The position numbers were made by a program, and so were the translations under genes. DNA of 64,000 nucleotides from Aquamicrobium sp. LC103. Its GTDB lineage: Bacteria; Pseudomonadota; Alphaproteobacteria; Rhizobiales; Rhizobiaceae. Below the pieces are notes generated by a model, which made no database searches, was not told the DNA's origin, and was given only the letters and a program-made list of their open reading frames with translations. The stretch is taken from positions 372,001 to 436,000 of the forward strand of contig NZ_LBCQ02000001.1 of NCBI RefSeq assembly GCF_001014615.2, in the 5' to 3' direction. This document shows, in pieces, positions 3,307 through 25,820 of the stretch (position 1 is the stretch's first letter; each line of letters begins with the position of its first letter).

Positions 3307-4223
3307 TCCGAAGGTCCCTTGGCGGAAGTCCCGTTGGCCGAAAGCCCGTTGGCGATCGTCTCGGTGGTCACCCGCAGAAGGTCGAGATAGGTCGGCACGG
3401 GACCGCCGGCATCGCTCAGCGAATCCACATAGAGCACGCCGCCATATTTCGCGCCAGTCTCCCGCGCCACCTGCTCGGCCGGCTTGGACGAAACCGTGCT
3501 CTCGCTGAAGATGGCGGGAACCTTGTGCTCGCGCATCTCGTCGATGACCTTGCGGATCTGCTGCGGAGTGCCCTGCGCGTCGGCGTTGATCGGCCACAGG
3601 TAGAGTTCCTTCAGGCCGAAGTCGCGCGCCAGGTAGCTGAAGGCGCCCTCGCTGGTGGCGAGCCAGCGCCGCTCCTCCGGGATCGCCGAAAGCGCCTCGC
3701 GGATCGGCGCGATGGTGGCCTCGATCTCGTCCTTGTAGGCCGCGGCATTCGCCTCGTAGACGGCGGCGTTCTCCGGGTCGTTCTCGGCGAAGGCAGCGGC
3801 GATGTTGTCGACATAGATGAGCGTGTCGGAAGGCGACATCCAGGCATGCGGATTGGGCTTGCCCTCATAGGGGCCTTCGCCGATGCCCATCGGCTCGACG
3901 CCTTCCGAGACGACGACGCTCGGCACGTCGCGCAGATTGCGGAAGAAGCGTTCGAACCATTGCTCGAGATTGAGCCCGTTCCACAGGATCAGGTCGGCAT
4001 CCTGCGCCTTGAGGATGTCGCCCGGCGTCGGCTGGTAGTTGTGAATCTCGGCATCCGGCTTGGTGATCGATTCGACGGTCGCCGCCTCGCCGGCGACGTT
4101 GCTTGCGATGTCGGCGATGACGGTGAAGGTGGTGACCACCTTCATCTTGTCGCCTTCCTGGGCGGCGGCCGGCGCGGCCAACAGGCATGTGAGGATGAAC
4201 GTCAGGATACGTGTGAACGACAT
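3303..4223 (-). CDS. sitA: Metal ABC transporter substrate-binding protein SitA
   Basis: This 306-residue periplasmic protein has a clear signal peptide (residues 1-21, ending AAPAAA) and the cluster A-I (ZnuA/SitA) fold. Likely metal ligands are H61 (IHNYQP), H126 (NPHAWMS), E192 ([10 protein letters not shown]) and D267 (YVDSLS). The His-His-Glu-Asp set is the one known for manganese/iron binding proteins; zinc binders usually have a third His and a His-rich loop, absent here. It should deliver Mn2+ (perhaps Fe2+) to SitC/SitD. It is the first gene of the operon, with a strong promoter and a palindromic operator upstream. Confidence 0.92.
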
Positions 4224-17292: not shown

Positions 17293-17335
17293 GTGCGTCC
17301 TTCGAGGCTCGCTTCGCTCGCACCTCAGGATGAGG
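17293..17335 (+). repeat. 43-bp repeat, left copy
   Basis: This 43-base element starts GTGCGTCCTTCGAGG and ends with the small hairpin CCTCA-GGA-TGAGG. It matches the reverse complement of 17851-17893 at 42 of 43 positions. It lies just inside the intergenic region after rpe. Confidence 0.85.
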
Positions 17336-17806
17336 GAAGTGCGAGGCTCGCTTCGCATGCACCTCAGGATGGAGGAAGCCCGAGGCTCGCTTCGCATGCA
17401 CCTCAGGATGGAGGAAGCCCGAGGCTCGCTTCGCGCGCATCTCAGAATGGGGGAAAGCCCGAGGCTCGCTTCGCGCGCACCTCAGGATGGGGAAAGCCCG
17501 AGGCTCGCTTCGCGCGCATCTCAGGATGGGGGAAAGCCCGAGGCTCGCTTCGCGCGCATCTCAGGATGGGGGAAAGCCCGAGGCTCGCTTCGCATGCACC
17601 TCAGGATGGAGGAAGCCCGAGGCTCGCTTCACGCGCATCTCAGGATGGGGGAAAGCCCGAGGCTCGCTTCGCGCGCACCTCAGGATGGGGGAAAGCCCGA
17701 GGCTCGCTTCACGCGCATCTCAGGATGGGGGAAAGCCCGAGGCTCGCTTCACGCGCACCTCAGGATGGGGGAAGTTCGAGGCGCTCGCGCCTCAGGATGA
17801 CGGAGG
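17301..17806. repeat. Tandem array of ~40-bp units
   Basis: About twelve consecutive units of 38-40 bases plus one truncated unit are visible. Each begins CGAGGCTCGCTTC and contains CTCAGGATG followed by a purine-rich tail such as GGGGGAAAGCC. Units vary at a few positions (CGCGCAC, CATGCAC, ACGCGCAT), and identical variants recur non-adjacently, which suggests unequal exchange or slippage. The first unit overlaps the left 43-bp element, so the array looks like an internal expansion of it. Open frames run through the array because the units lack stops in several frames; I do not regard these as genes. It separates the convergent rpe and chemoreceptor genes. Confidence 0.9.
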
Positions 17807-21090: not shown

Positions 21091-24033
21091 CTAATGCGCC
21101 TCGTCCCAATTGTCGGCCGCGCGGGCGTCGACATGCAGCGGCACCTTCATCGACAAGGCCGGCATGGCGGCGTTCTCCATCACCTCGCGTATGACGGGAA
21201 TGGCGCTCGCCACCTCGTTGTCGGGCGCCTCGAAGATGAGTTCGTCATGGACCTGGAGCAGCATCAGGGTCCGCTCCAGCCCGGCGGCATGCAACGCGCC
21301 TTCCATGCGCACCATGGCGCGGCGGATGATGTCGGCCGCCGATCCCTGGATCGGCGCGTTGATGGCGGCACGCTCGTTGAAGGCACGGACGGACGGGTTG
21401 GGCGAACGGATTTCCGGGTAGTGCGCGCGGCGGCCGAAGATCGTCTCGACATAGCCCTTGTCGCGCGCGAAGGCCTTGGTCGAATCCATGTAGTCCTTGA
21501 TGCCGGGAAAGCGCTCGAAATACTTCTTGATGTAGCTGCCGGCTTCCTCGCGCCCGATCGAGAGCTGGTTGGCGAGGCCGAAGGCGGAAATGCCGTAGAT
21601 GATGCCGAAATTGATCGCCTTGGCGCGGCGGCGAACCTCCGACGGCATGCCGTCGACCGGCACGCCGAACATTTCCGAGGCGGTCATCGCGTGGATGTCG
21701 ATGCCGTCGGCGAAGGCCTGGCGGAGCTGCGGAATGTCGGCCACATGCGCCAGCACGCGCAGCTCGATCTGGCTGTAGTCGGCGGAGACCAGCTTGTTGC
21801 CCGGATCGGCGATGAAGGCCGTCCTGATCTTGCGCCCTTCGGCGGTCCGGATCGGGATGTTCTGCAGGTTCGGCTCCGAAGACGACAGGCGGCCGGTCGT
21901 GGTGGCGGCGAGCGCGTAGGAGGTGTGGACCCGCTTCGTCTCGGGATGGATGTAGCCCGGCAGCGCGTCGGTATAGGTCGATTTCAGCTTGGTGAGCTGG
22001 CGCCAGTCGACGATCTTGCGCGGCAGCTCGTGGCCGGCCGCGGCCAGATCCTCGAGCACCTGCGCGGAGGTAGACCATTGCCCCGTCTTGGTCTTGGAGC
22101 CGCCCGGCAGCCCCATCTTGCCGAACAATATGTCGCCGAGCTGCTTCGGCGAGCCGATGGTGAAGCGGTCGCCGGCAAGCCGATAGATCTCGTCCTCGAG
22201 CGCCGCCGCGCCCTGCGCCAGCTCGCCCGAAAGCCGCGACAGGATCTGGCGGTCGACCGAAATGCCGCGCTCCTCCATGCGCGCGAGCACCGGCACCAGC
22301 GGTCGCTCCAGCCGCTCATAGACCGAGACCAGGCCTTTCTCGACGAGCCTCGGCCTCAGCACGCGCCAAAGCCGCAGCGTGATGTCGGCATCCTCGGCGG
22401 CGTAGCAGGTCGCCTTTTCGAGATCGACGAAATCGAAGGTGACGAGGTTCTTGCCCGAACCGCACACGTCCTTGAAGGCGATCGGCTTGTGACCCAGCCA
22501 GCGCTCGGAGAGGTCGTCCATGCCCTGCCCGCCGACACCGGCGTCGAGCACGTAGGAGAGCAGCATCGTGTCGTCATAGGGCGCCACCTCGATGCCGTGC
22601 CGGTGCATGACGACGAGGTCGTATTTCAGGTTCTGCCCGATCTTCAGGACGGAGCGGTCCTCGAGCAGCGTCTTCAGCTCGTCGAGCGCCTCGCGCACCG
22701 GTATCTGGTTCTCGACAAGTCCGCCGCCGAGCAGGTCACCGACGCCGGACTTGTGAGCGATCGGCACATAGGCGGCATGGCCGGGCCGGATCGCGATCGA
22801 GAAGCCGCAGAGCTCGGCCTGCATGGGATCGAGCGAGGTGGTCTCGGTGTCGAAGGCAACGACGCCTTCCTCGCGCGCCTCCTTCATCCAGGCCTTGAGC
22901 GTCACCAGGTCGCGGATGCAGGCATAGGCATTGACGTCGATCCTGCCGGCGATCGCCTCGGCGGCGCGGCCAGCGGCAAGGTCGGACGGCGTCGGAGCAT
23001 CGCCGCGCGAAGCCTCGGTCGGCGCCACGTCGCCGCTCGACAAGGCCTCGGGCTGCTCCGGCGACGACGCGACGAGATCCGGCCCGTGCGCATCCGCCCC
23101 CCATTGCACGTCGACATGCAGCGGCTCGATCTCCGCCGCTTCCGTGCCCGAGGCCTCGGCGACGCGGCGGGTGAGCGTGGTGAATTCCATCGTCTTCAGG
23201 AAGGCGACGAGCTTCGGCCCGTTCGGCGGCTGCAGCACGAGCTCGTCGAGCGTCTCGACCACCGGCACGTCGTTCTTGAGGCGCACCAGCTCGCGCGACA
23301 GAAGCGCCTTCTCCGTGTGTTCGATCAGAGATTCGCGGCGTTTGTTCTGCTTGATCTCGGAAACGCGCGCCAGAAGCGTATCGAGATCGCCGAACTCCTC
23401 GATGAGCTGAGCGGCGGTCTTCTGGCCGATGCCAGGCACGCCGGGAATGTTGTCGATCGAATCGCCCATCAGCGCCTGCAGGTCGATCATCTTTTCGGGC
23501 GGCACGCCCCATTTCTCGACGACCTCCGGCACCCTGATCTCGCGATCCTTCATCGGGTCGTACATGGAGACCGTCGGGCCGACGAGCTGCATCAGATCCT
23601 TGTCGGAAGAGATGATCGTGGTGTCGCCGCCCGCCTCGCAGGCAAGCCGCGCATAGGTGGCGATGAGATCGTCCGCCTCGAACCCCTCCATCTCGATGCA
23701 AGGCAGGTCGAACGCCTTGGTGGCGTGACGGATCAGCCCGAATTGCGGGATCAGATCCTCGGGCGGGGCGGAGCGGTTGGCCTTGTATTCGGGATAGAGC
23801 TCGTTGCGGAAAGTCTTCGACGAATAATCGAAGATGACCGCGAAATGCGTCGGCGTCACGCCCACATCGGTGTTGCGCGCGTCCTGCATCAGCTTCCAGA
23901 GCATGTTGCAGAAACCCGACACCGCGCCCACCGGCAGCCCGTCCGACTTGCGCGTCAGCGGAGGCAGGGCGTGATAGGCACGGAAGATGTAGCCGGAGCC
24001 GTCGACAAGAAAGAGATGATCGCCTTTTTTCAT
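21091..24033 (-). CDS. polA: DNA polymerase I
   Basis: This 980-residue enzyme has all three classical domains. A 5'-3' exonuclease lies at residues about 1-290 (FLVDGSGYIFRAYHALPPL, GFEADDLIA, SSDKDLMQL). A 3'-5' proofreading exonuclease follows at about 380-570 (VVAFDTETTSLD, LKYDLVV, CYAAEDADITLRL), with the DEDDy residues apparently intact. The polymerase fills the C-terminus (VSADYSQIELRVLAH, RRRAKAINFGIIYGIS, LLQVHDELIFEAP). It fills gaps in repair and processes Okazaki fragments. The ATG at 24033 was chosen over an in-frame TTG 6 bases upstream. A probable small RNA is divergent from it. Confidence 0.97.
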   Translation of the reverse strand: MKKGDHLFLVDGSGYIFRAYHALPPLTRKSDGLPVGAVSGFCNMLWKLMQDARNTDVGVTPTHFAVIFDYSSKTFRNELYPEYKANRSAPPEDLIPQFGLIRHATKAFDLPCIEMEGFEADDLIATYARLACEAGGDTTIISSDKDLMQLVGPTVSMYDPMKDREIRVPEVVEKWGVPPEKMIDLQALMGDSIDNIPGVPGIGQKTAAQLIEEFGDLDTLLARVSEIKQNKRRESLIEHTEKALLSRELVRLKNDVPVVETLDELVLQPPNGPKLVAFLKTMEFTTLTRRVAEASGTEAAEIEPLHVDVQWGADAHGPDLVASSPEQPEALSSGDVAPTEASRGDAPTPSDLAAGRAAEAIAGRIDVNAYACIRDLVTLKAWMKEAREEGVVAFDTETTSLDPMQAELCGFSIAIRPGHAAYVPIAHKSGVGDLLGGGLVENQIPVREALDELKTLLEDRSVLKIGQNLKYDLVVMHRHGIEVAPYDDTMLLSYVLDAGVGGQGMDDLSERWLGHKPIAFKDVCGSGKNLVTFDFVDLEKATCYAAEDADITLRLWRVLRPRLVEKGLVSVYERLERPLVPVLARMEERGISVDRQILSRLSGELAQGAAALEDEIYRLAGDRFTIGSPKQLGDILFGKMGLPGGSKTKTGQWSTSAQVLEDLAAAGHELPRKIVDWRQLTKLKSTYTDALPGYIHPETKRVHTSYALAATTTGRLSSSEPNLQNIPIRTAEGRKIRTAFIADPGNKLVSADYSQIELRVLAHVADIPQLRQAFADGIDIHAMTASEMFGVPVDGMPSEVRRRAKAINFGIIYGISAFGLANQLSIGREEAGSYIKKYFERFPGIKDYMDSTKAFARDKGYVETIFGRRAHYPEIRSPNPSVRAFNERAAINAPIQGSAADIIRRAMVRMEGALHAAGLERTLMLLQVHDELIFEAPDNEVASAIPVIREVMENAAMPALSMKVPLHVDARAADNWDEAH

Positions 24034-24152
24034 GCGCAAACGGGTAGCGCGGAGCGCTTCTGGTGTCCAGGTGCAGAATCCGAGCCTACTGCCACGGAAA
24101 AAGGGCCCAGAAACTCATCACGCCTATGTTACAGATCTTTAATGTTCGTGCC

Positions 24153-24182
24153 CTTGAATCGCCATTATCAACGACCCAAATA
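24153..24182 (+). promoter_or_regulatory. Candidate small-RNA promoter
   Basis: CTTGAAT (24153-24159) and CAAATA (24177-24182) are separated by 17 bases. This resembles the CTTGAC/CTATAT housekeeping promoters of rhizobia and points at the hairpins and terminator that follow. Transcription would start near 24189. Confidence 0.5.
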
Positions 24183-24188
24183 CATCGC

Positions 24189-24334
24189 ATCGGCAATTAT
24201 CGCCGAAGTCCGGAAGTAGGCCCGTCCCCCGCCTGACCGGACAAGAGCGGCAGCCTCATCCCCCTCTCCGGGCTGCCGCTTCGTTTAGAGTAAGGCCGCC
24301 GTGGTTCCCCCTCCACCACGGCGGCACTTTTTTG
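24189..24334 (+). ncRNA. Probable trans-acting small RNA, alpha-r7/Smr7C-like
   Basis: The 401-base gap 24034-24434 between polA and the M20 peptidase gene has no credible gene but ends in a strong terminator that no plus-strand gene uses. The implied transcript is about 146 bases. It holds a 10-base stem (24246-24255 with 24271-24280) and the terminator hairpin. Three single-stranded segments share a C-run: TCCCCCGCC at 24225, TCCCCCTCTCC at 24259 and TTCCCCCTCC at 24305. Such loops can pair with Shine-Dalgarno sequences. In Sinorhizobium meliloti a ~150-base sRNA, Smr7C of the alpha-r7 family, lies beside polA (from memory), so location and size agree. Exact ends are inferred. Confidence 0.65.
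24295..24333 (+). terminator. Rho-independent terminator of the polA-adjacent small RNA
   Basis: GCCGCCGTGG and CCACGGCGGC form a perfect 10-base stem around an 11-base pyrimidine-rich loop. Two bases later a run of six T follows. The T-run is on the plus strand only. Confidence 0.9.
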
Positions 24335-24434: not shown

Positions 24435-25820
24435 ATGTCCGCAATCTCTCCCGTTCTCGACAGGATCGACGCCGATCTCGAAAACAGCATCGAACGGCTG
24501 TTCTCGCTGGTTCGCATACCCTCGATCTCCACCGACCCCGCCTATGCCGCCGACTGCCGGCGCGCGGCCGAATGGCTGGTGGAAGACCTGAAGGGCATCG
24601 GCTTCGACGCCAGCGTGCGCGACACGCCGGGACACCCGATGGTCGTCGCCCATCACGAGGGGCCGGCGGGATCGCCGCACCTCTTGTTCTACGGTCACTA
24701 CGACGTGCAGCCGGTCGACCCGCTCGATCTCTGGGATACCGACCCGTTTGCCCCCGCGATCAAGGATCTGGGCGAGGGCCGCAAGGTCATTACCGGGCGC
24801 GGCGCGTCCGACGACAAGGGCCAGCTCATGCTCTTCGTTGAAGCCTGTCGGGCATGGAAATCCGTGCACGGCTCCCTGCCATGCAGGATCACCCTCCTGT
24901 TCGAGGGCGAGGAGGAATCCGGCTCGCCCTCGCTGAAGCCGTTCCTCGAGGCCAATGCGGAGGAGCTGAAGGCGGATTTCGCCATGGTCTGCGACACCGG
25001 CATGTGGGACCGCGAGACGCCGGCGATCTCAGTGGCGCTGCGCGGCCTCGTCGGCGAGGAGGTGACCGTGCACGCCGCCGACCGCGACCTGCATTCCGGC
25101 GAGTTCGGAGGCGCGGCCGCCAATCCGATCCGCATCCTGGCGAGGATCCTCGCCGACGTGCATGACGAGAACGGCCGCGTGACGATCCCGGGCTTCTACG
25201 ACGGCGTCGAGGAAACGCCGTCGCAGATCCTGAAATCCTGGGAAGGGCTCGGGGAGACCGCCGAAAGCTTCCTCGGCGAGGTCGGGCTTTCGATCCCGTC
25301 CGGCGAGAAGGGCCGGTCGATCCTGGAACTGGTCTGGGCGCGCCCGACCGCCGAATTCAACGGCATTTCCGGCGGCTATACCGGCAAGGGCTTCAAGACG
25401 GTGATCGCCTCGGAAGCTTCGGCCAAGGTCTCCTTCCGCCTCGTGCACAAACAGGATCCAGTGAAGATCCGCGCCGCCTTCCGCGCCTTCGTCGAGGCGC
25501 GCATCCCGGCCGACTGCTCGGTGGTGTTCCACAGGCACGGCGGCTCGCCCGCGATCCAGCTTTCCTACGATTCGCCCTTCCTGACCAAGGCGAAGCAGGC
25601 GCTGACCGACGAGTGGAACAAGCCCGCGGCGATGATCGCCATGGGCGGGTCGATCCCGATCGTCGGCGATTTCCAGAACATGCTCGGCATGGAATCGCTG
25701 CTCGTCGGCTTCGGCCTTTCGGACGACCGCATCCATTCGCCCAACGAGAAATACGACCTCTCCTCATTCCACAGGGGCCAGAGAAGCTGGGCGCGCATCC
25801 TCGCCGCCCTCACGGCCTGA
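24435..25820 (+). CDS. M20 family metallopeptidase (dipeptidase)
   Basis: This 461-residue zinc peptidase of the M20/M25/M40 family carries the metal motif FYGHYDVQPVD (H88, D90), GRGASDDKGQ (D126), and FEGEEESGSP (E159 as general base, E160 as ligand). The CDTGMWD and GGSIPIVGDF motifs resemble carnosinase-like dipeptidases, as does the length. It should cleave dipeptides or small N-substituted amino acids in the cytoplasm; there is no signal peptide. It is followed after 15 bases by nrnC and may be cotranscribed with it. The exact substrate is unknown. Confidence 0.9.
   Translation: MSAISPVLDRIDADLENSIERLFSLVRIPSISTDPAYAADCRRAAEWLVEDLKGIGFDASVRDTPGHPMVVAHHEGPAGSPHLLFYGHYDVQPVDPLDLWDTDPFAPAIKDLGEGRKVITGRGASDDKGQLMLFVEACRAWKSVHGSLPCRITLLFEGEEESGSPSLKPFLEANAEELKADFAMVCDTGMWDRETPAISVALRGLVGEEVTVHAADRDLHSGEFGGAAANPIRILARILADVHDENGRVTIPGFYDGVEETPSQILKSWEGLGETAESFLGEVGLSIPSGEKGRSILELVWARPTAEFNGISGGYTGKGFKTVIASEASAKVSFRLVHKQDPVKIRAAFRAFVEARIPADCSVVFHRHGGSPAIQLSYDSPFLTKAKQALTDEWNKPAAMIAMGGSIPIVGDFQNMLGMESLLVGFGLSDDRIHSPNEKYDLSSFHRGQRSWARILAALTA

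Follow-up and report, generated by a model that had tools for sequence, protein, structure and literature searches.

The RNA predicted at positions 24187..24333 (+ strand) of the window, the whole 64-kb stretch of Aquamicrobium sp. LC103 DNA analysed here, is the SmrC7/sra03/SmelC023 RNA of Sinorhizobium meliloti, named ReC06 in R. etli. The gap between polA and an M20-family peptidase gene thus holds a real, well-conserved and already catalogued small RNA (sRNA), another member of the known ar7 family. On balance we favour the reading that ar7 is a trans-acting sRNA with an RpoH-type promoter, whose loops repress several G-rich translation starts. Our own analysis supplies the family membership, the predicted structure with its covariation, the conservation of the loops, the promoter sequence and the synteny; the transcript, its ends and its induction in nodules and by heat come from papers on relatives. 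New here are an alignment of 30 genomes across genera, in which the promoter and an upstream palindrome are followed, and a search for conserved targets with exact complementarity, which was negative.

The first-pass annotation had proposed, from size and location, that the RNA belongs to the alpha-r7 (Smr7C) family, and the Rfam ar7 model (RF02342) bears this out. The model matches 24188-24330 (+) over its full length (positions 1-145) with 127.1 bits against a cut-off of 60. This is the only Rfam match above cut-off in the whole window, and a single ar7 copy was found in the genome. The predicted transcript is ~147 nt long, its ends being placed by the promoter, by the T run and by comparison with the S. 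meliloti transcript of 148-150 nt. Sequence and structure over the whole model, the polA neighbour, the size, the terminator and the conserved loops of the two middle hairpins are all shared with the SmrC7 family, and there is no difference of kind.

Other sRNAs with C-rich loops were also compared. NfeR1 of the alpha-r14 family (RF02344) folds, like ar7, into three hairpins whose loops are C-rich and whose stems vary. It carries CCUCCUCCC in each loop and has six copies in S. meliloti, whereas the RNA studied here has UCCCCC cores with CCUCC in loop 3 only, and one copy. The alpha-r14 model gives 40.2 bits, below its cut-off of 58.8, and CCUCCUCCC is absent from 24188-24333. Despite the three C-rich loops and this partial score, the proposal that the feature is an alpha-r14/cuckoo sRNA instead of ar7, whose own model reaches 127.1 bits, is already refuted by the model scores and we give it practically no weight. 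The CcsR/cuckoo RNAs (RF02791; CcsR1) share a C-rich loop motif with ar7, which lacks their CCUCCUCCC, and their model scores 20.8 bits against a cut-off of 65.3. The Pxr and anti-hemB models both fall below their cut-offs. PmaR of Agrobacterium is described as binding its targets through a C-rich loop, a kind of loop also present in ar7, but it forms one spoon-like hairpin and is reported only in Agrobacterium species and one Rhizobium strain.

The divergent neighbour of ar7 is polA, encoding DNA polymerase I (21091..24033, - strand; Pfam PF00476, PF02739, PF01367 and PF01612), whose start codon lies 155 bases ahead of the ar7 model start. Downstream, on the same strand as ar7 and at a distance of ~100 bases, is the M20-family peptidase gene (24435..25820, + strand; PF01546 and PF07687). 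No coding gene is assigned between the two, as had been noted at first pass; the listed ORFs that overlap the gap look mechanical, and length changes between helices are not multiples of three in the alignment, as judged by eye. The location beside polA is likewise a property of the family, with polA within 1.5 kb of ar7 in 25 of 30 family loci. The M20 gene is found within the same distance in 22 of them. This proximity could suggest that the RNA is a by-product of a cis-acting leader of the M20 gene, with the terminator serving as an attenuator. We regard this as quite improbable: at 8 of the 30 loci no M20 gene was found inside 1.5 kb, the alignable start of the gene lies more than 580 bases past the match in 7 of the 22 others (L003, L005, L006, L009, L010, L017 and L028), and the S. 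meliloti RNA is described as autonomous.

With an E-value threshold of 0.001, ar7 was matched in 31 of 61 genomes, 23 of which pass the Rfam cut-off. All 31 belong to the window's family, which contributed 37 genomes to the search; none of the 24 genomes from other families of the order matched. Across the class, one genome of 190 carries ar7, and it is the window's own. These searches used strict filters by which weak members can be missed, and the genus is represented by the window's own genome only. Read with these filters, the distribution agrees with the reported confinement of ar7 to Rhizobiaceae, Phyllobacteriaceae and Brucellaceae (PMC3927594). A copy is also present on a metagenome-assembled contig labelled Pseudolabrys (L151), which lies outside those families unless it is mis-binned. 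Smr7C is stated as not found in M. huakuii 7653R (PMC5596092).

An exact pattern made of loop 2 and its 3′ stem retrieved 52 stretches from named genomes; the titles of 28 give Mesorhizobium, Aminobacter or Chelativorans. The stretch closest over the flanks is that of Mesorhizobium sp. L-8-3 (80.6% over 2749 bases). Forty-nine of the 52 adjoin polA or the M20 gene (within 3 kb, polA in 45 and M20 in 41); of the remaining three, one is a second, truncated copy in Chelativorans sp. J32, and those in Collinsella and Streptomyces are probably chance matches. This named set and the 30-locus set share several genomes and are not independent. The J32 copy (L157, near 3424-3513; 90 bp, 95.6% identical) keeps loops 1 and 2, has neither terminator nor promoter, and adjoins trxA/addA-like genes, named by eye. 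In one genome, a weak second ar7 match (G032:C2:1130510-1130644, 31.5 bits) is a possible paralogue.

The RNA is predicted to fold with a minimum free energy of -71.6 kcal/mol (z-score -6.26), and none of 200 shuffled sequences was as stable. Hairpin 1 (24190..24206) forms a 5′ domain that is variable in the alignment. Hairpin 2 (24208..24242) has a covarying stem and carries loop 1 with the core GUCCCCCGC (24224-24232). The stem of hairpin 3 (24245..24281) also covaries and closes the 13-nt loop 2, CAUCCCCCUCUCC (24257-24269). Hairpin 4 (24295..24333) is the terminator; it carries loop 3, UUCCCCCUCCA, and a run of six U. Its 10-bp stem (24295-24304/24316-24325) and the six T at 24328-24333 are where the first-pass annotation had placed them; its loop of 11 bases is missed by a simple scan that allows loops of up to 8. 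TCCCCC occurs at 24225, 24259 and 24306. The first two positions had been given correctly, the third one T too early (24305). Moreover, all three runs lie in predicted loops, and not two as first described; the GCC after the first run is, in the predicted fold, part of a stem. When the 147 bases were shuffled 5000 times with dinucleotides preserved, 13 shuffles had at least three TCCCCC, the motif having been picked after the fact. The only other TCCCCC triplets in the window are on the minus strand at 17573-17772, inside a tandem array (17303-17773) of ~12 copies of a 40-bp unit (CGAGGCTCGCTTCGCGCGCACCTCAGGATGGGGGAAAGCC) that resembles expanded palindromic repeats.

Conservation was assessed in the 30-locus alignment, which has 30 distinct rows, 7 of them scoring below the Rfam cut-off. 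The consensus structure comprises 29 pairs, with 95.2% of the cells paired, and 27 of the 29 pairs show double changes; none of 500 shuffles reached either value, and sliding the pair partners abolishes the covariation signal. The loop 1 core (GUCCCCCGC; DNA GTCCCCCGC) is present in 27 of the 30 loci and in all 49 named loci beside polA or M20. The loop 2 core (CCCCUCUCC; DNA CCCCTCTCC) is also kept in 27 of 30; the named loci are uninformative for this loop, which served there as the search key. CCUCC of loop 3 (DNA CCTCC) is found in 25 of 30 loci, being missing in 5, and in 49 of 49 named loci. The mean frequency of the major residue over the 30 loci is 0.96 for cores 1 and 2, 0.78 for the stems and 0.69 for loop 3 as aligned. 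The mean predicted unpaired probability is 0.99 for the loop 2 core (its 27 loci), 0.99 for CCUCC of loop 3 (25 loci) and 0.73 for the loop 1 core (27 loci; minimum 0.09). Among the four stems measured, helix 4, which covaries, shows the lowest conservation, and helix 5, the terminator, is 99.7% paired across the 30 loci. One AT-rich outlier (L030) retains little of loop 1. The first-pass reading had been staked on loops that do not drift over kept stems. Since both cores are near-fixed (27 of 30 each) and the stems covary, such drift is not what loops 1 and 2 display; the terminator loop 3 is looser.

These features are in keeping with what is published. In S. meliloti, SmrC7 is reported as a discrete RNA of 148-150 nt with a processed form of 106 nt, ~13-fold more abundant in nodules (PMC2780559). 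Other size estimates are 120 nt (PMC2245857) and about 140 and 90 nt (PMC2573895). Three hairpins with a strictly conserved middle loop of 15 nt have been described (PMC2245857), as have the family model, a microsynteny with polA that has one exception, and loops that stay conserved while the stems vary (PMC3927594). Counting 106 nt back from the last U, and by analogy with S. meliloti, the processing site would fall near 24228, inside loop 1. SmrC7 is reported to give no signal when Hfq was pulled down, and the authors interpret this as an affinity that is absent or very low (PMC2848018). In the accessible open-licence literature we found neither a functional study nor a proven target of ar7.

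The promoter boxes given at first pass, CTTGAAT (24153-24159), 17 bases and CAAATA (24177-24182), are present at those positions, but their class needs to be changed. The RpoH1 consensus is reported as CTTGAA-N15-16-CCTATAT (PMC4843759). The -35 element CTTGAA (24153..24158, + strand) matches it and is kept in most of the family; the -10 element CCCAAAT (24175..24181, + strand), 16 bases after the -35, matches at 5 of 7 positions. The promoter CTTGAA-N16-CCCAAAT thus scores 11/13 with fitting spacing, better than the 9/12 of the sigma-70 form, and is probably, judging from its sequence, of the heat-shock (RpoH) type. At 20 of 30 loci the RpoH-like score is at least 10/13, a level that 102 of 3000 mononucleotide-shuffled upstream regions attain; 35 of 49 named loci attain it as well, and the other 10 of the 30 score below 10/13. 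The RpoH model has three matches in this genome, one of them above cut-off; as it also matches in 10 of 14 control genomes, the weaker matches may correspond to other sigma factors. Published tables already give RpoD and RpoH1/2 promoters for SmelC023, and ReC06 of R. etli, equated with ar7 in PMC3927594, is reported to be raised by heat shock (PMC4167512). In view of this listing and this heat response, the RpoH assignment corrects the first-pass annotation and is not new.

Upstream of the promoter, 24118..24143 (+ strand) is probably, on sequence grounds, a candidate regulator site. It consists of TCAC (24118-24121) and an imperfect palindrome, GTTACAGATCTTTAAT (24128-24143), whose family form is GTTACAAATTTGTAAT. 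The copy in this window is degenerate, with 3 mismatches to GTTACAAATTTGTAAT. With up to 4 mismatches, GTTACAAATTTGTAAT is found upstream in 25 of 30 loci, compared with 8 of 3000 upstream regions after mononucleotide shuffling, a lenient control since GTTACAAATTTGTAAT was derived from the loci on which it was scored. TCAC directly precedes the palindrome in 21 of these 25 loci, and a relaxed pattern of the palindrome occurs once in this genome. The gap between palindrome and -35 element is 9-11 bp in 18 and 20-21 bp in 5 of the 23 loci that score for both, with none between. Among the named loci, the gap is 9 or 10 in 45 of the 46 that score; the sole outlier (66, in L161) is due to a misplaced promoter score. 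Spacings that differ by one helical turn suggest that a bound protein contacts RNA polymerase, and the element of TCAC and palindrome is a candidate activator site, possibly shared with polA. In the S. meliloti SmrC7 promoter, a UlaR site was predicted by del Val 2007 (PMC2780559).

The first-pass annotation had described three anti-Shine-Dalgarno (anti-SD) segments. This stands for loop 3, the only one with CCUCC, and is too strong as a general statement: in modelled duplexes with a GGAGG site, loop 3 reaches -10.8 kcal/mol, loop 2 -7.9 and loop 1 (GUCCCCCGC), which pairs poorly, -5.6, the yardstick being the 16S tail with GGAGG at -17.0 kcal/mol. With GGGGG, all three loops give -14.1 to -15.2 kcal/mol. 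Since these energies favour GGGGG for every loop, the trait common to the loops, as modelled, is a C5 core facing G-rich sites and not a canonical anti-SD in each of them.

Targets were searched as exact 9-base complements of the loops ahead of a start codon, so that only exact pairing was covered. For loop 2, 23 genomes gave 96 matches, 15 of which are the sRNA itself; all 81 others were examined, and the 41 frames of at least 60 aa from ATG contained no homologous pair at 1e-6. The backward-pattern control gave 46 matches, 15 of them in one genome (G029). In this genome, two of the four non-self loop 2 sites are at plausible gene starts; judged by eye, one gene encodes a polyamine-type ABC permease and the other an MFS transporter. 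For loop 3, 15 genomes gave 88 rows representing 83 sites, one being the sRNA; 80 of the other 82 were examined, two sites in G035 being omitted, and 47 frames contained one weak homologous pair at 1e-4, UvrD/AddA-like by eye (control, 12). For loop 1, the 59 rows from 15 genomes represent 57 sites, two of them the sRNA; 40 of the remaining 55 were examined, and 19 frames contained no homologous pair (backward control, 29). Pooling the loops gave 116 proteins with one pair, branched-chain-type permeases by eye. The excess over the backward controls is expected from any SD-like pattern. For none of the three loops did these searches reveal a start site with exact complementarity that is conserved across genera, which argues against one conserved perfect target and not against short or imperfect pairing. 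The G-rich flanks of an interspersed palindrome, GGAGGGGGACCATGCGAAGCATGGTGGAGGGG, match ar7 loop 3 by complementarity (L193, L195 and L197 in this genome; part of L198-L221 in G031). Its core occurs at 10 places in this genome and 19 in G031; it resembles an ar7 sponge, but the core is present in only 4 of 10 ar7-bearing genomes.

A single antisense target, the operon upstream of zapA, was put forward for sra03 by Ulve et al. 2007, on the basis of a 15-nt loop complementary to the smc03977-smc03976 leader (data not shown in PMC2245857). In the 23 ar7-bearing genomes, all sites covered by a crude search of one strand over 1.5 kb upstream of zapA differed from the 14-base loop complement at 3 or more positions, and we hold it very improbable that ar7 acts as an antisense RNA for this operon alone.

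The main rival to the antisense reading is a decoy role, in which the three UCCCCC loops, as copies of one binding site, would titrate either an RNA-binding protein or a single RNA, and mRNA starts would not be the main partners. CsrB, which titrates CsrA, is the yardstick for such an sRNA. In favour of a decoy are the recurrence of a similar C5 core on several hairpins, the stronger conservation of two loop cores compared with the stems, the lack of a conserved exactly complementary start site in our searches and the reported lack of an Hfq pull-down signal in S. meliloti. Against it, loop 3 varies, related sRNAs with C-rich loops are reported to pair with mRNAs, and we know of no protein that recognises a UCCCCC loop motif. 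We judge the decoy unlikely. Decidedly unlikely, too, is a fuller version in which a stress-induced decoy titrates one pyrimidine-binding protein or a G-rich RNA, and ar7 is transcribed only when RpoH acts together with a dedicated regulator that occupies GTTACAAATTTGTAAT on a constant helical face.

For ar7, multi-target repression is our preferred guess, since the C-rich loops of NfeR1 silence mRNA at the start region: this alpha-r14 sRNA with three anti-SD loops is reported to pair there and repress, ntrBC being a target in S. meliloti. For ar7 such repression is plausible by analogy. Counted against the antisense reading are the lack of a conserved target in our searches, the poor pairing of loop 1 with GGAGG, the loss of CCUCC in 5 of 30 loci, the RpoH-like score below 10/13 in 10 of 30 and the reported lack of Hfq pull-down signal for SmrC7. 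According to the multi-target reading, ar7 would be transcribed from its own RpoH (sigma-32) type promoter, probably usable by sigma-70 too, with a putative regulator binding the palindrome just upstream, and transcription would stop at the intrinsic terminator. The folded RNA would expose three C-rich single-stranded loops. Through these loops ar7 would most likely pair with Shine-Dalgarno regions of the G-rich GGGG/GGAGG type in several mRNAs, and would lower the translation of those mRNAs under stress or in association with a host.

ar7 is widely kept in Rhizobiaceae and Phyllobacteriaceae, and its level is reported to rise in the nodules of S. meliloti and after heat in R. etli. Its near-fixed loops, its RpoH-type promoter and the phased upstream element are handles on the ar7 regulon and on its regulator.
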